Shown: in pieces, positions 52,916-62,681 of the stretch
How positions within the stretch are numbered: the first letter of the stretch is position 1
Layout of the letters: every line of letters starts with the position of its first letter
DNA from: Brachybacterium tyrofermentans
GTDB taxonomy: Bacteria; Actinomycetota; Actinomycetes; Actinomycetales; Dermabacteraceae
DNA: 64,000 nucleotides
NCBI RefSeq assembly: GCF_014897585.1
Contig: NZ_JABUXW010000002.1
Span: 1-64,000, forward strand
Direction of reading: 5' to 3'
Translations under genes and position numbers: made by a program
Notes under the pieces: model-generated
The model's input: the letters and a program-made list of their open reading frames with translations, nothing else
What the model was told of the DNA's origin: nothing
The model's database searches: none

Positions 52916-53647
52916 TCAGGTGATCGCCGTCGTCATCTCCCGATATCGTGCGACGACCACCGAGGCCACCGCCGGATCCGCACCCAGCGGAGCTGAGACC
53001 AGATCCGCGCCGCTGCGCTGCACCAGCCCCGCGAAATGCCCCGGGGCGAGCACATAGCTCACGGCGACCACCCGCCGGGCCCCGGCGGCCCGTGCCGCGG
53101 CGACCGCCTCGGGCAGCCGGGGCCGGACCCCCGCCCCGTAGCCGAGGGTGATCGGCGCAGGGAGCTCCGCCTGCAGGAGGTCCCGCATCCGTTCGACGGC
53201 GCGGGCCGAGGCAGGATCCGTCGAGCCCGCCGCAGCGAGCACGACGTGGTCTCCCGGCCGGAACCCGGCATCGCCACCCGGCAACGCCGCGAGTCGGCTC
53301 GTGAGGACATCGACGAGCTCCGGATGCGGACCCAGCGCCGGCGCGGCCGTGGCCTGTGGATACGGAGCGCACGCAGCACCGATGTCGACCCGTGTGTGAT
53401 GACCTGGCGACAGCAGCAGCGGCACGACCACCACCGGGCTGTCGGCCGCGACACGGGCGACGACCCCGCTGATCTCCGGCCGCTCGACGTCGACCACGGC
53501 GTGCTCGACCCGCACCCCGGGCAGCTCCCGCGCCGCCTGGGCGATCAGAGCGGCGATCGTCGTCCGACCGGCCGCTGACCGGGTGCCGTGCGAGCAGGCG
53601 ATCAGCACCGGAGGGCCCACCGTGGCCGCCTCCATGACCGCACTCAT
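52916..53647 (-). CDS. cbiX: Sirohydrochlorin chelatase-like protein (CbiX)
   Basis: A 243-residue two-lobed chelatase. The metal and tetrapyrrole ligands occur as SHGTRSAAG (H20 region), PLLLSPGHHTRVDI and, in the second lobe, LGYGAGVRP and SYVLAPGHFA. With CobA upstream in the same operon its likely role is inserting Fe2+ into sirohydrochlorin to make siroheme for NirB. A separate precorrin-2 dehydrogenase is not encoded here. ATG 53647 overlaps the hemD stop. Confidence 0.82.
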   Translation of the reverse strand: MSAVMEAATVGPPVLIACSHGTRSAAGRTTIAALIAQAARELPGVRVEHAVVDVERPEISGVVARVAADSPVVVVPLLLSPGHHTRVDIGAACAPYPQATAAPALGPHPELVDVLTSRLAALPGGDAGFRPGDHVVLAAAGSTDPASARAVERMRDLLQAELPAPITLGYGAGVRPRLPEAVAAARAAGARRVVAVSYVLAPGHFAGLVQRSGADLVSAPLGADPAVASVVVARYREMTTAIT

Positions 53648-55250: not shown

Positions 55251-55627
55251 CTCACCCTCCCCCACAGGAGGTACACGGTGCCCCGATCCTGGCGGGCCTG
55301 CCAGGTGCGCAGCCGTGCCGGGTCCTTGCCCCGCGGATCGAGGCAGGCGCCGGTTCGCAGGTCGAAGACCTGCTTGTGCATCGGGGATGCGATCGTGGGC
55401 GCGTCCCCGTGCGAGCCGACGATGCCGCGGGAGAGGACGTAGGCGTCGGAGTAGGGATCGCGATTGCAGGTCGCCCGGATGCTGCCGTCGGCCAGCAGGA
55501 ACAGGGCGATCTGGGCGTGGTCGACGAGTGCGGCGCGCCCCCGCTCGATCTCGAGATCGTCCACCGAGCACACCGGGCGCCAGGTGGGCCCGGTTCGCGT
55601 CGTGGGTTCGAGGGTCTGCATGTTCAT
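55247..55627 (-). CDS. nirD: Nitrite reductase small subunit
   Basis: A 126-residue Rieske-like NirD subunit. PVCSVDDLEIERGRAAL and DRDPYSDAYVLSRGIVG then SPMHKQVFDLRTG match the family; as usual for NirD, a full set of Rieske ligands is absent. It partners NirB in cytosolic NADH-dependent reduction of nitrite to ammonium. ATG 55627 overlaps the nirB stop and has GGAGG upstream. Confidence 0.93.
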   Translation of the reverse strand: MNMQTLEPTTRTGPTWRPVCSVDDLEIERGRAALVDHAQIALFLLADGSIRATCNRDPYSDAYVLSRGIVGSHGDAPTIASPMHKQVFDLRTGACLDPRGKDPARLRTWQARQDRGTVYLLWGRVR

Positions 55628-58197
55628 CGTCGTACCTCCAGTCGGGTGCCGGCGATGAGGACCTCGCCGGATCGTCGTTCCTCGCCGCTCGCCGGCCGGA
55701 CCTGCCCCCGGGCGGGGGTGTAGGCCAGCGAGGGATCCGGGGTCTGCGGGGCGTTCACGAACGAGCGGAACCGCCGCAGCTTCTCGGGGTCGGCGAGGGT
55801 CGCCGCCCATTCGTCCTCGTAGTCCTCCACATGACGGTCCATCGCGGCGTCGAGATCGGTGCAGATCCCGAGGGAGTCCTCGAGGACCACCTCCCGCAGG
55901 GTGCCGATCCCGCCGTCGAGCGCCTGGAGCCACGGCGCGGTGCGCTGCAGCGTGTCGGCGGTGCGGAGGTAGTACACGAAGAACCTGTCGATGGTGCGCA
56001 CGAGAGTCTCGTCGTCCAAGCCCTCGGCGAGCAGCTCGGCATGGCGCGGGGTCGCCCCGCCGTTGCCGCCCACGTACAGGTTCCAGCCCTGCGCGGTGGC
56101 GATGATCCCGGCGTCCTTGCTGCGCGCCTCCGCGCACTCACGGGCGCAGCCGGAGACGCCGAGCTTGAGCTTGTGCGGGGCGCGCAGACCGCGATAGCGC
56201 AGTTCCAGGCGCACGGCCATGGCGGTCGAGTCGAGCACCCCGTAGCGGCACCAGGCCGACCCCACGCAGGACTTCACGGTGCGCAGCGATTTGCCGTAGG
56301 CCTGCCCGGACTCGAACCCCGCGGCCACCAGCCGCTCCCAGATCGGCGGCAGCTCCTCGAGCCGCGCGCCGAACATGTCGATGCGCTGGCCGCCGGTGAG
56401 CTTGGTGTACAGCCCGAAGTCCCGGGCGATCTCGCCGATCACGATCAGGCCCTCCGGGGTGACCTCCCCGCCCGCCATCCGCGGGACCACGGAGTAGGTG
56501 CCGTCCTTCTGCATGTTCGCCATGACGTGGTCGTTGGTGTCCTGCAGGGTCGCGTTCTCCCCCTCGAGCACATGGCGCGGGGCGAGGGTCGCCAGGATGC
56601 TCGCGAGCGCCGGCTTGCAGGTGGCGCATCCGCGTCCGCTGCCGAATCGCCCGATGATCGCCGAGAACGTGGTCAGGCCCGAGACCTGCACGGCGTCGAA
56701 CAGCTGACGGCGCGAGAGATCGAAGTGCTCGCACAACGCGGTCGAGACGGCACGTCCCATCCCGGCCAGCTCGGTGGTGACGAGGCCCTTGACCGCGAGC
56801 ACGCAGGAGCCGCAGGTGGCGCCGGCCCGGGTGCAGGCCGCGACGGCACCGGCATCCTCGCAGCCCTCCTCGTGCACGGCCTCCCGGATCCGGCCGGCGG
56901 TCACCCCCGCGCAGGAGCAGACGACGGCCGCATCGGGCAGCTCGCCGCTCGGGGCGACCACACCGCCCTCCGGCAGGAGGTAGGCGGCCGGATCCGCTCC
57001 GAGCGCGCTCCCCACCAAAGGCCGCAGGGCGCCGTACGCAGAGGCGTCGCCCACCAGCATGCCGCCCAACAGCGTGCGGGCGTCGTCGGAGAGCACGAGC
57101 TTCTTGTACACCCCTCCGACGGGGTCCGCGTAGACCACGTCGAGCGCGCCGGGTGTGGTGGCGAAGGCGTCGCCGAAGCTCGCCACGTCCACCCCGGAGA
57201 GCTTGAGCTTGGTGGAGAGGTCAAAGCCGGTGAAGGTGGAGTCCCCGCCGAGCAGACGGTCCGCCGCCACCTCGGCCATCGCGTAGCCGGGGGCCACCAG
57301 GCCCACACAGCGGCCCTCGAAGGAGGCGACCTCCCCGATCGCCAGGATCGCGGGATCGCTGGTGCGGCAGCCGGCGTCGATCTCCACCCCGCCGCGCTCG
57401 GCGCAGTCCAGTCCCGCAGCGCGCGCCAGCTCATCCCGTGGGCGGACGCCGACGGTGAGGACCACCAGGTCAGCAGGGTCGCTGGACCCGTCGGCGTACT
57501 CGATGCCGACCACCTGCCCGTCGGCCCCCGCGGCGAGACGGGTGGTGCGGGCGCTCGTGCGCAGGACGATGTCGCGCTGCTCGAGGAGACGGCGCAGGGC
57601 GGTGCCGGCCGGAAGGTCGAGCTGGGCCGACATCACGCGGTCGCCCGACTGCACCACGGTCGCCGCGGCGCCGAGTCCCTGCAGGGCGCCGGCCGCCTCG
57701 AGCCCGAGCAGCCCGCCGCCGATGACGACTCCGCGCACCGCGCGTCCCCGTCGGCGCGCAGCGGCCTCGACGTGCTCGACGTGCGCGCGCAGCTGCCGGA
57801 CGTCGTCCAGGGTGCGGTAGACGAACACTCCCGGCAGCTCGGCGCCCTCGATCGGCGGTCGTGCGGCCGCGGACCCGGTCGCGAGGACGAGGCGGTCGTA
57901 GCCGTGCACCTGCCCGCTGCGGGTGACGACCTGGCGCTCCTCGCGGTCGATGCGGGCGACGGGGTCCCCGGCGAGGAGGCGCACGCGCGGATCCTGGAAC
58001 GGCTCGGGATCCAGGGACAGCGACCCGGGATCGGCGCCGTCGACGTACCGGCTCAGCCCCACCCTGTCGTAGGGAGCGCAACCCTCCTCCCCGAGCACGG
58101 TCACCTCGAGACCGTCCCCGGCCCGGGAGAGCAGGCTCTCGACGAGACGGTGGGCGACCATCCCGGCGCCGACCACCACCAGGCGGGTGGCGCTCAT
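55624..58197 (-). CDS. nirB: NADH-dependent nitrite reductase large subunit
   Basis: An 857-residue flavo-iron-sulfur-sirohaem enzyme reducing nitrite to ammonium. In order: FAD domain (VVGAGMVAHR at 7-16), NADH domain (VIGGGLLGLEAAG near 158), BFD-like [2Fe-2S] domain (VCSCAGVTAGRI, then CTRAGATCGSC), and the sulfite/nitrite reductase halves with the siroheme-[4Fe-4S] cysteines in KSCVGSAWCRYG and SGCARECAEARSKD. ATG 58197 overlaps the nirC stop. Confidence 0.96.
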   Translation of the reverse strand: MSATRLVVVGAGMVAHRLVESLLSRAGDGLEVTVLGEEGCAPYDRVGLSRYVDGADPGSLSLDPEPFQDPRVRLLAGDPVARIDREERQVVTRSGQVHGYDRLVLATGSAAARPPIEGAELPGVFVYRTLDDVRQLRAHVEHVEAAARRRGRAVRGVVIGGGLLGLEAAGALQGLGAAATVVQSGDRVMSAQLDLPAGTALRRLLEQRDIVLRTSARTTRLAAGADGQVVGIEYADGSSDPADLVVLTVGVRPRDELARAAGLDCAERGGVEIDAGCRTSDPAILAIGEVASFEGRCVGLVAPGYAMAEVAADRLLGGDSTFTGFDLSTKLKLSGVDVASFGDAFATTPGALDVVYADPVGGVYKKLVLSDDARTLLGGMLVGDASAYGALRPLVGSALGADPAAYLLPEGGVVAPSGELPDAAVVCSCAGVTAGRIREAVHEEGCEDAGAVAACTRAGATCGSCVLAVKGLVTTELAGMGRAVSTALCEHFDLSRRQLFDAVQVSGLTTFSAIIGRFGSGRGCATCKPALASILATLAPRHVLEGENATLQDTNDHVMANMQKDGTYSVVPRMAGGEVTPEGLIVIGEIARDFGLYTKLTGGQRIDMFGARLEELPPIWERLVAAGFESGQAYGKSLRTVKSCVGSAWCRYGVLDSTAMAVRLELRYRGLRAPHKLKLGVSGCARECAEARSKDAGIIATAQGWNLYVGGNGGATPRHAELLAEGLDDETLVRTIDRFFVYYLRTADTLQRTAPWLQALDGGIGTLREVVLEDSLGICTDLDAAMDRHVEDYEDEWAATLADPEKLRRFRSFVNAPQTPDPSLAYTPARGQVRPASGEERRSGEVLIAGTRLEVRR

Positions 58198-59075
58198 CGC
58201 ACGACCGCCACGGGCTGGGCGCTGGTGGGGGCGGGAGCGGCGGCAGGGCTGGCGGCCGGGCTGACGGCCGGCACCCGCGCCGGGGCGGTGCGGTGGTGCG
58301 TGGCATACAGCACCAGACCCACGAAGACGACACCGCCGACGAGGTTGCCCAGCACGGTCGGGATCTCGTTCCAGACCAGGTAGTCGCCGATCGTGAAGTC
58401 CGCGCCGAGCAGAAGCCCCGAGGGGAACAGGAACATGTTCACCACGGAGTGCTCGAAGCCCATGGAGAAGAAGAGCATCACGGGCATCCACATCGCGATG
58501 ACCTTGCTGATCAGAGCGTCGGACATCATCGCGGCGATGACCCCGGTGGAGACCATGACGTTGCACAGCACCCCGCGCAGGAAGAGGGTGAGCATGCCGC
58601 CCGCACCGTGCTCGGCATAGCCGACGGTGCGGCCATGGCCGATCTCGCGGATCGCGAGCCCGACCTCGTTCGGGGCGGTCGAGAAGGCGTAGGTGAAGCA
58701 GATCGCCATCACCAGGGCGACGGTGAACGCTCCCGCGAAGTTCCCGACGAAGACGAGGCCCCAGTTGCGCAGGATCGACCGGACGCTCGCCCCCGGTCGG
58801 CGGGCCAGCAGTGCCAGCGGAGCCAAGGTGAAGACCCCGGTGAGCAGGTCGTAGCCGAGCAGGTACAGCAGGATGAAGCCGATGGGGAACAGCAGCGCGC
58901 CGAGCAGCGGCTGCCCGGTCTGGACGGTGACCGTGACGGCGAAGGCGGCCCCCAGCGTGAGGAGCGCGCCGCCCATGAAGCCGCGGATCAGGGTGTCGCG
59001 CGTGGACAGCAGCAGCTTGCCGGCACCGGCATCGATCATGCGTCCGACGAGGTCAGCGGGCTTGACGTAGGACAT
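58194..59075 (-). CDS. nirC: Formate/nitrite transporter family channel (NirC-like)
   Basis: A 293-residue FNT-family channel with six membrane helices. GNFAGAFTVALV, LCNVMVSTGVIAAM and FFSMGFEHSVVNMFLFPSGLL are conserved, the last containing the central histidine loop. It should bring nitrite in for the reductase encoded behind it. The C-terminal 35 residues are Ala/Pro/Val rich. ATG 59075 follows GGAG and is the first gene of the six-gene operon. Confidence 0.92.
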   Translation of the reverse strand: MSYVKPADLVGRMIDAGAGKLLLSTRDTLIRGFMGGALLTLGAAFAVTVTVQTGQPLLGALLFPIGFILLYLLGYDLLTGVFTLAPLALLARRPGASVRSILRNWGLVFVGNFAGAFTVALVMAICFTYAFSTAPNEVGLAIREIGHGRTVGYAEHGAGGMLTLFLRGVLCNVMVSTGVIAAMMSDALISKVIAMWMPVMLFFSMGFEHSVVNMFLFPSGLLLGADFTIGDYLVWNEIPTVLGNLVGGVVFVGLVLYATHHRTAPARVPAVSPAASPAAAPAPTSAQPVAVVR

Positions 59076-59113
59076 GCGCACTCCTGGGGAGGTGGGGATC
59101 GAGCTCGCCGCCA

Positions 59114-59172
59114 AACTATGGGCGGCGCCGGGGATCCCCTAGGGCCAGGGTGTTGCGTGACCTTCCTGTGAC
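59114..59172 (-). promoter_or_regulatory. Candidate nir operon promoter and GlnR-like direct repeat
   Basis: On the minus strand CATAGT (near 59121-59116) could be a -10 about 40 bp before nirC. Upstream, GTCAC-n6-GTCAC (59172-59157) has the 11-bp spacing and GTnAC core of GlnR half-sites, and nirBD operons are GlnR targets in several actinobacteria. A 10-bp palindrome GGGGATCCCC (59130-59139) lies between. Only one repeat pair matches, so this is tentative. Confidence 0.35.
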
Positions 59173-59212
59173 ATTCCGTCCCAGGGACGGACGCACAGTC
59201 TGCGGTGCCGGG

Positions 59213-60232
59213 TCAGTAGGAGGCGCGCACCAGTCGTTCGTGTCCGGTCTCCTCGAGCACCGCGATGTCGGAGTTCGCCTTGAGGAAGTCGGAGAAGGAG
59301 CGGAACCCGAGGGTCTTCTCGCTGAAGGACGGGTCCATGCGGCGCATGTGCGACTTCACCGCAGAGCTGTGCAGCCACTCGCTGTCGCCGCGCCCGCCCA
59401 GCTGCAGCGCGCGCTGGAGCAGACGGGTCGCCGCCTCGCGCGGATCCTCCGAGCTCTCGATGTCGTCGTCATCGACGGCGTCGGCTGCGGCGTCGGCCGC
59501 CTCGGCTGCGGCGGCATCAGCAGCGTCCTGGGCCGACTGCGCCGTCGCGTCAGATCCTGCGGACCCGGCGGACCCGGCGGACCCGCTGGAGTCGCCGCCG
59601 CCCCGGCCCCGTCCGCTGCCGCTGCTCTGGCCCCGGCGGGTGCGGGTCCTCGTGGGTGCCTCGGGACGCTCGACGCCCGGGAGGTTGTCATAGGCCTCGA
59701 ACTCGTCGCAGGCCGCGGCGAGGGACTTCGCGGTGGAGCCTGCCACACCCATCGCGATGACGTAGCGGCCGAGGCGGCGGCAGCGCTGCGCAAGCGGGAC
59801 GAAGTCGGAATCGCCGGCGACGATCACCACGTGGGTGAGGTCAGGGATGCGGAACATGTCCTCGACGGCGTCCACGGCGAGGCGGATGTCGGCGCCGTTC
59901 TTCGCATAGGCGGCGGCCGGGAACAGCTGCACGAGGTCCACGGCGCGGGCGACCAGCTGCGAGCGGTACTCGGCGTTGACCGGGGAGGACCAGTCGGCAT
60001 AGGCGCGGGTGAGCATGAGGGAGCCGAAGGAGGCGGCGTAGTCGATGATCGCGCCAACGTCGACCGTCGCCTTCGCGAGGCGCTCGGCGATCTCGGGCTC
60101 CGTGGGATCCTCGGCGATGCGCTGACGGTCGCGGCCATAGGCATTTCGTCCGTGCACCCGGTCGTACCAGGACATCACGATGTTGTCGAAGTCCAGGTAG
60201 ACGGCGACGCGGGGATCAGAGAGTTCGGCCAT
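59213..60232 (-). CDS. NYN-domain RNase-like protein with C-terminal OST-HTH/LOTUS domain
   Basis: A 339-residue protein. Residues 8-165 are a NYN (PIN-like) nuclease domain with acidic residues D14 and D16 (VYLDFDNIV), D115 (NGADIRLAVD) and D141/D143 (VAGDSDFVPL). A low-complexity Ser/Gly then Ala/Asp linker (about 185-262) leads to an OST-HTH/LOTUS domain (about 265-339, SAVKSHMRRMDPSFSEKTLGF, split here; ends HERLVRASY), which in other proteins binds RNA. The target RNA is unknown. Confidence 0.85.
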   Translation of the reverse strand: MAELSDPRVAVYLDFDNIVMSWYDRVHGRNAYGRDRQRIAEDPTEPEIAERLAKATVDVGAIIDYAASFGSLMLTRAYADWSSPVNAEYRSQLVARAVDLVQLFPAAAYAKNGADIRLAVDAVEDMFRIPDLTHVVIVAGDSDFVPLAQRCRRLGRYVIAMGVAGSTAKSLAAACDEFEAYDNLPGVERPEAPTRTRTRRGQSSGSGRGRGGGDSSGSAGSAGSAGSDATAQSAQDAADAAAAEAADAAADAVDDDDIESSEDPREAATRLLQRALQLGGRGDSEWLHSSAVKSHMRRMDPSFSEKTLGFRSFSDFLKANSDIAVLEETGHERLVRASY

Positions 60233-60818
60233 GGGTCCAGTCTGCCCCGTGCGAGCACCGGCAGATACCGACGCGCCGTGGAGATCGGTGTGCGCAGTGA
60301 GGGCTGGCGCACGTCGCGGGCGTGGGAGCTGACCGACAGGGGAGTGCAGGCGCTGGGTGATGAAGACCCTTCGGGGCGCCCTGAGCGCTGCGCGTCGCTC
60401 CACCATCCCCTGCACACCGTTCCGCAGTGACCGATTCCCCTGATTTGACCCAGCCTTCGAGCCGATTTCCGGACGGCCCCACACGTGCATTCTTCGCGCG
60501 CGCCGTGAGAATTCCGTAGAGCGCTTCTCCTGCACAGCCTGAGGGACGGTGCGCGGCATCGTGCCGAGCCACAGACGGAGACCGCCCCACCCGCACCTCA
60601 CCGCCCGCCACCCTCAGCGAACCCATGTGGCGATGGGTCGACGTCACTCCAGGTCCCGGGAGCATTGACGCCGCCTCGACCGGCCGCACCCGAGTCCGAT
60701 CTGCAGAACATCGGCGGCGAGTCCGCTGCGTGCCCACCGCGAGTCCATAGCGATCCTGCGGCGACTCTGCGGCGACTCCCCCGTGATGCCACGACGACCC
60801 TTCCTCCCCAGAGACACT

Positions 60819-60883
60819 TTATCCACAGTGCCAGATCATCATTTTGTGGATACCGCTCGGGAACATTATGGAAGTTATCCACA
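60819..60883. promoter_or_regulatory. Cluster of three DnaA boxes
   Basis: TTATCCACA occurs perfectly at 60819-60827 and 60875-60883, and TGTGGATAC (one mismatch to the reverse consensus) at 60845-60853. Three boxes in 65 bp, about 30 bp apart, are far above chance in such GC-rich DNA. The cluster lies 5 bp upstream of a candidate -35 element. No dnaA, dnaN or partition gene is near, so this is probably not oriC. Confidence 0.6.
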
Positions 60884-60887
60884 CCCC

Positions 60888-60916
60888 TTCATCGGGGTCA
60901 TTCCGCCGACTACGAT
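60888..60916 (+). promoter_or_regulatory. Candidate promoter of the DUF222-HNH gene
   Basis: TTCATC (60888-60893), a 17-bp spacer and TACGAT (60911-60916) give a reasonable actinobacterial promoter about 65 bp before the chosen start. The last DnaA box ends five bases before its -35. Confidence 0.4.
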
Positions 60917-60989: not shown

Positions 60990-62681
60990 ATGAGCGCGCA
61001 GAGTCACAGCGTGCCGTTCGTTGAGGAGCCGGATGACGACGAGAGCACGGTCGACGACGAGAACGCAGTCGACGACGGGATCGCAGTCGACGAGCGGGCG
61101 TTCCTCGACTCGCTCCCGCGACGCCTGCAGATCGTCGATGCCCGCTCTCCCCTCACCCGCGATGGCCTTCCTGACCGCACAGAGTGCGGGAAGGACCCGG
61201 AGCTGGGCGCTGCCGCACAGCGGGTCTGGGATGCCGAGAAGTCCAGCGCCCGCGCCCTCGCCGGCAGGTATCGCGCGCTCGCCGAGCTCTTCGACTGCGA
61301 GAGGGAGGATGACGAGGACGAGGAGGACGTCACGACGGCGCGTGCCGCGATCGCGCTGCGCGTCACCCACGGCGTCGCCCGATGGGAGCTGCGCTCGGCG
61401 CATCGCGCGGCCCATCATCTGCCCCGCACGTTCAGCCTGCTGGAGGGCGGCCGCTTCCCTTCCTGGTGGTTCCAGCGCATGGTGCGTGAATCGGAGGATC
61501 TGAGCGAGGAATCGCGACGTCAGCTCGACCTCGCCGTCGCCACCTGGTCCACGGACATCCCGGTGGACCGCTTCATCACGCTGCTCGGCGCCCTGGTGGG
61601 CCTGCTCGCCCGCCGAGAGGAGGAGCTCGAGGAGGCACCTCCGCTGCCGCGGGAGATCACCATCGCCCCGGACACCACCCGCGGGGCCGGTTCTCTGGTC
61701 GCACGTGGCCCCATCCCGGAGATCCTCGCGTACTGGAAGCGGCTGGATGAATCGGCCCGAGCGATCCAGGCAGCGCAGCGGAAGGCCCTTCGGGACGACA
61801 CGGAGATCCCGTACGACGTGGACGACCTGGTCACCTCGACAGGTCGTCCGCTCCCCCTGGACCGCCTGCGCTACGAACTCCAGCTGAACGCCACCTTCGA
61901 TACCGGGGACGTCCCGATCCCGGGCCCACGGTTCCGGCTCAACGTCACGGTGCCCGCCCTCACCCTGCTCGGCGCCTCGGACGCTCCCGGCATGCTGGAC
62001 GGCACCACACCGATCCCGCCCGAGATGGCCCGTCTGCTGGCCGGTGGGCAGGAGACCTGGTTCCGCGTGCTGACCGATCCCTGCTCCGGCGCATTCCTGC
62101 CCCTCCCGGCGGACCGCTATCAGCCCAGCCAGACGGTGCTCGAGCACCTGCGGCTGCGCAACGCCACGTGCGCCGTGCCCGGCTGCACCCGCCCTGCGTC
62201 CTGGGCCGCCGAGTGCGATCACCTCGAGGAGTTCGACCACGAGCACCCCGAGCGCGGTGGCCGCACCGAGCTGGAGAATCTCCACATGCTGTGCTGGCAG
62301 CACCACCAGGACAAGACCGCCGGGCTCCTCGACCCCGCCCGGATCCCCACCGCCACACGCGAACCCGGCCGAACCCGCTGGCGCCTCGGCCGCACGGGCG
62401 ACCACGCCATCGTCGCCGACGACGTCGACCTCGCCACGCGGATCGCGGTCGAGGAGCTCGAGGCCGCCTGGCGGACGCATCTCGCACGGCGCACGCAGAG
62501 GACGGCACAGGGGGCGACGCAGGCGGGTACTGAGAAGACTGCGACGAAGGATGCCGACCCGGCGACCACGCCGGCGTCGCTGCCAGCCCCACCGCCCGAA
62601 CCACCACCGGAGCCGCCATGGAGCCTGCGGCCGGAGAGCCCGCCAGGACCCTGCGATCCGGAGGATCCACCGCCCCCGTGA
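60990..62681 (+). CDS. DUF222/13E12-family HNH endonuclease
   Basis: A 563-residue protein of the actinobacterial DUF222-HNH group. An acidic head (EEPDDDESTVDDENAVDD) precedes the DUF222 domain (about 75-340). The HNH nuclease domain shows C394-x4-C399 (CAVPGC), C409-D-H411, then NLHMLCWQHHQDKT with C435, H438 and H439, consistent with a zinc-bound HNH fold. The tail is Pro/Glu rich. Many copies occur in some genomes; cellular role is unknown. ATG 60990 follows GGGG; GTG 60981 is an alternative. Confidence 0.85.
   Translation: MSAQSHSVPFVEEPDDDESTVDDENAVDDGIAVDERAFLDSLPRRLQIVDARSPLTRDGLPDRTECGKDPELGAAAQRVWDAEKSSARALAGRYRALAELFDCEREDDEDEEDVTTARAAIALRVTHGVARWELRSAHRAAHHLPRTFSLLEGGRFPSWWFQRMVRESEDLSEESRRQLDLAVATWSTDIPVDRFITLLGALVGLLARREEELEEAPPLPREITIAPDTTRGAGSLVARGPIPEILAYWKRLDESARAIQAAQRKALRDDTEIPYDVDDLVTSTGRPLPLDRLRYELQLNATFDTGDVPIPGPRFRLNVTVPALTLLGASDAPGMLDGTTPIPPEMARLLAGGQETWFRVLTDPCSGAFLPLPADRYQPSQTVLEHLRLRNATCAVPGCTRPASWAAECDHLEEFDHEHPERGGRTELENLHMLCWQHHQDKTAGLLDPARIPTATREPGRTRWRLGRTGDHAIVADDVDLATRIAVEELEAAWRTHLARRTQRTAQGATQAGTEKTATKDADPATTPASLPAPPPEPPPEPPWSLRPESPPGPCDPEDPPPP

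Follow-up and report, generated by a model that had tools for sequence, protein, structure and literature searches.

The window, by which we mean the whole 64-kb stretch of Brachybacterium tyrofermentans DNA that was analysed, contains a gene for a DUF222-HNH protein preceded by a cluster of sites that match the DnaA-box consensus. The original prediction had placed two exact copies of TTATCCACA and one inverted GTATCCACA ahead of this gene, together with a promoter candidate made of TTCATC and TACGAT, and each of these elements was confirmed at its position. That observation is correct, and understated: a partner half-site, a helical phasing of the boxes and a tie to PafBC-type promoters go beyond it. 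The features of the locus are the following, with the corresponding sequences of the three closest relatives (loci L156, L157 and L158).

60801–60810, forward strand: partner half-site TTCCTCCCCA, with its CCTCC core starting 16 bp ahead of box 1; CCTCCACA, CCTCCATG and CCTCCCCA in L156, L157 and L158
60819–60827, forward strand: box 1, an exact TTATCCACA, forming with the partner a two-part element that spans 60801–60827; TTTTCCACA in L156 and L157, TCGTCCACA in L158
60845–60853, reverse strand: box 2, inverted GTATCCACA with one mismatch, reading TGTGGATAC on the forward (gene) strand; the same in L157 and L158, TGCGGATAC in L156
60856–60864, forward strand: CTCGGGAAC, exact in L156 and partial in L157 and L158
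60875–60883, forward strand: box 3, an exact TTATCCACA starting 36 bp ahead of the −10 candidate; TTGTCCACA in L156 and L157, TCATCCACA in L158
60888–60893, forward strand: TTCATC, a possible −35; CCTTTC in L156 and L158, TCTTCC in L157 (aligned stretch, by eye)
60911–60916, forward strand: TACGAT, the −10 candidate (TAnnnT); TAGTCT or TACTGT in L156–L161 (by eye)
60990–62681, forward strand: DUF222-HNH gene, starting at ATG 60990 (HNH domain, E = 1.8e-4)

The longest open reading frame, from GTG 60783, overlaps the boxes. In 6/6 aligned relatives the conserved start is ATGAGC, which corresponds to ATG 60990 here, so that the boxes most likely lie between genes. The Pfam scan did not report the window protein for the PF02720 profile; its membership of the DUF222-HNH (13E12) family comes from its HNH domain and from homology, at 36–45% identity, to a group of proteins that includes several PF02720 matches. 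A search for relatives with the single window protein as query returned no loci, and an alignment-based query returned 70 loci encoding relatives, all titled Brachybacterium apart from a Helcobacillus, a Gordonia and three contigs from one Actinomycetales MAG. The closest, in L156, L157 and L158 (74, 63 and 60% identity), were taken as orthologues on identity alone. Neighbouring ORFs at 55624–60240 by eye resemble a nitrite reductase, a formate/nitrite transporter and an NYN protein on the other strand.

At up to one mismatch, the 64 kb contain a fourth match at 53355 and none besides that and the three boxes. The bare count is unremarkable (4 matches versus 1.84 expected, with 13/100 shuffles reaching 4). 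The layout is kept in L156–L158, where by eye a spacing of 36 bp leads from the third box to the −10, the same as in the window; in L159, L160 and L161 a box and the −10 are by eye 47, 47 and 46 bp apart, a spacing larger by about one helical turn.

Exact boxes are concentrated upstream of DUF222 genes. The 4.6-Mb genome from which the window comes holds 23 exact copies of TTATCCACA and 15 DUF222 genes, counting that of the window (15 PF02720 rows in 14 genes); 15/23 boxes are found at most 2 kb upstream of one of these genes, against 0.15 expected, and 15/15 point in the gene direction. Across six genomes of the genus, 49/85 exact boxes fall in the 2 kb ahead of a DUF222 place (∼0.5 expected), 47 of these 49 in the gene direction. 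The expected figures are binomial and descriptive, since they assume independent boxes and related paralogues are not independent; the window gene entered by homology, and the count without the window is 47/83. For these counts adjacent PF02720 rows in one frame were merged, and the PF02720 cut-off was E 0.1 for five genus genomes and E 0.001 for the own genome. Seen from the genes, one or more exact copies of TTATCCACA stand within 2 kb at 41/74 DUF222 places, and the other 33/74 have none (with a box, per genome: 11/15, 9/11, 4/12, 3/9, 7/12 and 7/15), and highly diverged DUF222 paralogues are among the carriers. The original prediction had named loss of the boxes upstream of relatives as one result that would speak against it; instead they recur, with substitutions in L156–L158 and exactly at these 41 places. 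TTRTCCACA in the gene direction was found within 800 bp upstream at 45 of the 70 loci; five of these 70 hold less than 800 bp there.

Outside the genus, 0/1 and 1/39 exact boxes of two genomes lay at DUF222 places; an exact TTATCCACA stood at 0/6 DUF222 places in G024 and 1/11 in G028, and in G024 a composite with TTGTCCACA precedes a DUF222 gene (L232). TTRTCCACA was absent from 16/20 upstream regions of a further set outside the genus. Exact boxes of the own genome apart from DUF222 places include those at C24:237941–237961, C89:23473 and C5:27321, of which the C89 box is also accompanied by a partner, CCTCCGCA.

The boxes keep a helical phase relative to promoter elements. In 123 upstream regions of the genus, with the box defined as YYNTCCACA, the distance from the box to TGTCRG-N10-[T/G]A was 20–21 bp (3 pairs), 30–31 bp (7), 41–42 bp (4) or 44 bp (1), which places 14/15 pairs in the first three classes. 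The distance to TAGnnT was 36 bp (6 pairs), 46–47 bp (9) or 56–59 bp (19), together 34/43 pairs, the other nine lying elsewhere. For a control word the pair counts were 1 (TGTCRG) and 5 (TAGnnT). The Rayleigh R at 10.5 bp was 0.88 for TGTCRG and 0.72 for TAGnnT; with each distance counted once it was 0.82 and 0.51, and 0.38 for the class-wide set, and the best-fitting periods were 10.9, 10.6 and 9.7 bp, respectively. For all three sets these figures are descriptive, treating boxes as independent against a null uniform over 10–65 bp. When the −10 was not demanded the spacing was looser: 35 box to TGTCRG pairs, 20 of them at 20–42 bp and 15 at 44–66 bp. With TAnnnT as the −10, and with start sites predicted from it, the box centres would fall near −44, −55 and −65. 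Activators that touch RNA polymerase sit at such positions.

The arrangement recurs beyond the genus. A looser pattern matched in 119/297 genomes of the order; in the 137 distinct rows of the distance set, among the matches listed, the spacing peaks at 31–33 bp (53 rows), with smaller peaks at 22–24 bp (20) and 43 bp (10). Among 30 order loci that we fetched, TA occupies the −10 place in 9/9 with a spacing of 31–32 bp and is missing from it in L143 (33 bp). The 22–24 bp peak is probably background, because TA stood at the −10 place in none of the 22–25 bp loci examined (L126, L127, L141, L147, L150–L152 and L155), and as a genuine spacing class we consider it doubtful. Throughout the class, TTGTCCACA followed by TGTCGG-N10-TA was matched in 64/394 genomes, compared with 3/394 for a permuted box and 10/394 for an inverted box in the same search. 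Among the matches listed (first places per genome), 84 distinct rows, left after the omission of identical rows and a few near-identical ones, have 61 at 31–33 bp and 7 at 21–22 bp. The distribution is uneven, with the composite in 1/35 genomes of family f22 (G440) among the matches listed, and work in such a lineage would miss it.

The genes served are largely repair genes. Twenty-five first downstream ORFs, hand-picked for a range of families (at each locus, the longest ORF with a start a short way downstream; L140 was dropped), were scanned with Pfam, and 20/25 were DUF222 proteins (10), RecA (5) or helicases (5). The helicases are UvrD (L228, own genome), RecD2 (L265), RecQ (L253) and two DEAD/Helicase_C proteins, L260, which has a sub-threshold RecQ zinc domain, and L274. 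The other five were an NRPS, an MFS protein, phosphoglucose isomerase, ribosomal S6 and an ORF with no family. One recA locus (L234) represents many similar loci of family f36, as judged by eye.

Several further observations were made in this search. One genome, G538 (family f58; L255–L258), has eleven box and TGTCGG-N10-TA composites, one of them before an NRPS-type gene, and also four inverted-box composites. Among the inverted-box rows, which include those of G534, G538, G353 and G642, 8/17, three of them identical, are at 30 bp, and those in G642 lie at 41 bp; the inverted site, too, seems to keep helical phase. The recA of L267, which has such a promoter, contains an intein that includes a LAGLIDADG-like domain. 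Immediately before the outer box in L237–L242, L247, L249, L250, L252 and L254 (family f36, recA by eye) stands a TCGAAC..TGTTCGG-type palindrome, which we take to resemble the actinobacterial LexA (SOS) box. The recA promoters of this family seem to stack an SOS box, DnaA-type boxes and a PafBC-type element.

The TGTCRG-N8-TAnnnT arrangement resembles RecA-NDp, the promoter of the damage activator PafBC; such promoters of mycobacteria were reportedly described by Gamulin in 2004. The TGTCRG-N10-TA arrangement and the DNA-repair genes are common to both, and the own genome encodes PafBC, as one 688-aa PafBC-like fusion with two WYL domains whose residues 24–672 match the solved PafBC 6sj9 (E 1.7e-40). 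The sites described here differ in having a DnaA-type box that lies farther upstream by about one to three turns of the helix. TGTCRG with TAnnnT is present in part of the genus (15 pairs) and of other families, and we infer that these genomes use PafBC. The window promoter itself lacks TGTCRG, and with it the PafBC/RecA-NDp pattern of TAnnnT 16 bp after the TGTCRG start; by eye, GGTCATTC occupies the expected place, and the box and the −10 candidate are retained. By analogy with its relatives, this promoter may nevertheless respond to damage. In mycobacteria, DUF222-HNH genes belong to the 13E12 family.

According to passages of three papers (PMC6789036, PMC11804915, PMC8223512), PafBC acts via RecA-NDp and a −26 motif, and the motif reaches beyond mycobacteria; the word DnaA is absent from their main texts. 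In a passage of PMC9380542, the M. smegmatis motif is apparently not conserved in S. venezuelae, according to an initial search. Mitomycin C, as passages of PMC8151990 have it, induces five putative HNH endonucleases in M. tuberculosis in a manner dependent on RecA and not PafBC, and this RecA dependence speaks against PafBC-driven HNH genes in that species. These mycobacterial proteins, which may include DUF222 members, are HNH proteins tied to DNA damage like those described here; unlike here, their induction is RecA-dependent, and the same passages mention no box. The motif string in PMC8607333 is, in the excerpt concerned, part of a LexA probe. In the open-licence literature we found no paper with both PafBC and the DnaA box, none joining a DUF222/HNH endonuclease with the DnaA box or PafBC with 13E12, none on 13E12 with RecA-independent DNA damage and none on the DnaA box with an HNH endonuclease promoter in Actinobacteria, and none of the titles among the matches listed there deals with DnaA boxes at damage promoters.

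Between dnaA and dnaN of the own genome (C11:96176–96196) stand TTGTCCACA and TTATCCACA, their starts 12 bp apart. Because these are the same 9-mers, DnaA is the best candidate for the binder, and judging from the sequences it is most likely the protein that recognises the boxes. The variants seen (TTG, TCA and TTT) fall, we assume, within the actinobacterial DnaA-box spectrum. A chromosomal origin in the window had been thought unlikely, and the locus is not one: dnaA and dnaN lie on contig C11, the window on C38. A cluster of five boxes in 82 bp (TTATCCACA twice, TTGTCCACA twice and CCATCCACA) was found at G000:C11:107837–107918 (L065, L275). We rejected it as oriC, for it lies ∼2.8 kb beyond parB while dnaA and dnaN flank C11:96176–96196; it could be a second DnaA-binding control site, apart from dnaA–dnaN. 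DnaA-regulated promoters are known elsewhere, at E. coli dnaA and uvrB and in the B. subtilis DnaA regulon. Like the present sites, these place DnaA boxes close to the promoters of genes for replication or repair; here, unlike there, the boxes are phased, lie mostly in one orientation, have a PafBC-type promoter adjacent and occur in several families.

Another protein is possible as the binder because of two properties of the Brachybacterium sites. One is orientation, which is nearly fixed, and DnaA binding does not need fixed orientation. The other is the partner: CCTCC(A/C)CA precedes many genus boxes, with NNNTCCACA starting 15 or 16 bp later in 45/45 partner-box pairs of a first genus set (in 36/55 regions) and 54/55 of a second (in 41/68 regions), two sets that are not independent because the named loci (L156–L225) and the genus genomes may partly share species. 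Reversed sequences, used as control, gave 0 pairs. TTRTCCACA stood without the partner in 23/47 and 21/58 cases in these two genus sets, and no partner was found beside the dnaA–dnaN (oriC) boxes or the parB-side cluster of the own genome. The boxes could then be the operator of another transcription factor with a motif resembling a DnaA box, the full site in Brachybacterium being the partner followed by NNNTCCACA; so tight a two-part motif, the near-fixed orientation and the bare oriC boxes would all suit it. Beyond the genus, however, the 9-mer is retained on its own, the partner being found at 15 or 16 bp in 0/48 composite matches in the loci of the order and class searches, and the 9-mer equals the boxes between dnaA and dnaN, with variants inside the actinobacterial DnaA-box spectrum. 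We regard such an operator as possible, but on the unlikely side.

Titration, which the original prediction had offered as a second role, would have the boxes soak up DnaA as a reservoir without regulating the gene. Exact boxes are rare in the genome, and the share of them found at DUF222 loci suits this idea; datA-type titration sites are likewise clustered boxes away from oriC. Here, by contrast, the boxes are placed and oriented relative to promoters, and titration needs neither near-fixed orientation, nor helical phasing to the −10, nor recurrence at recA and helicase promoters, which makes it improbable as the main role. Less probable again is a binding site of the DUF222-HNH protein itself, for autoregulation or as a nuclease target: the density of boxes at DUF222 genes within the genus would fit, but other families have a box in similar phase ahead of recA and helicase genes, and highly diverged paralogues carry the box. 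Coincidence, or common descent of duplicated upstream DNA, is very nearly discounted, for although paralogues may carry copied promoters and several rows of the class search are near-identical relatives, the arrangement recurs before different genes, in several families and with diverged spacers, and the permuted and inverted controls reached 3 and 10 genomes versus 64 of 394.

With moderate confidence, then, we read these boxes as a control site that sits in phase with damage-type promoters and is probably bound by DnaA. A protein recognising YYNTCCACA, most likely DnaA, would bind ∼44, 55 or 65 bp before the predicted transcription start, on one helix face relative to RNA polymerase, and would adjust promoters of the PafBC/RecA-NDp type, most likely by activating or gating them. 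DUF222-HNH nuclease genes would thereby be tied both to damage, through PafBC, and to replication state, through DnaA, and the same double tie would hold for recA and helicase genes (recQ, recD2, uvrD) of other actinobacterial families. The original prediction is partly upheld, in the recurrence of the boxes at relatives, and its link from DnaA to replication status is one that we, too, put forward as a possibility.

More tentatively, we speculate that throughout the Actinomycetes DnaA may be a phased co-regulator at PafBC-type damage promoters, including that of recA, such that the damage response and the lineage-expanded HNH nucleases would read DnaA-ATP, as a measure of replication-initiation capacity, together with single-stranded DNA. 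If so, there would be a testable idea of when DUF222-HNH nucleases get made, and two controls that have been studied separately, that by the replication initiator and the damage response independent of LexA, would meet in one promoter architecture.
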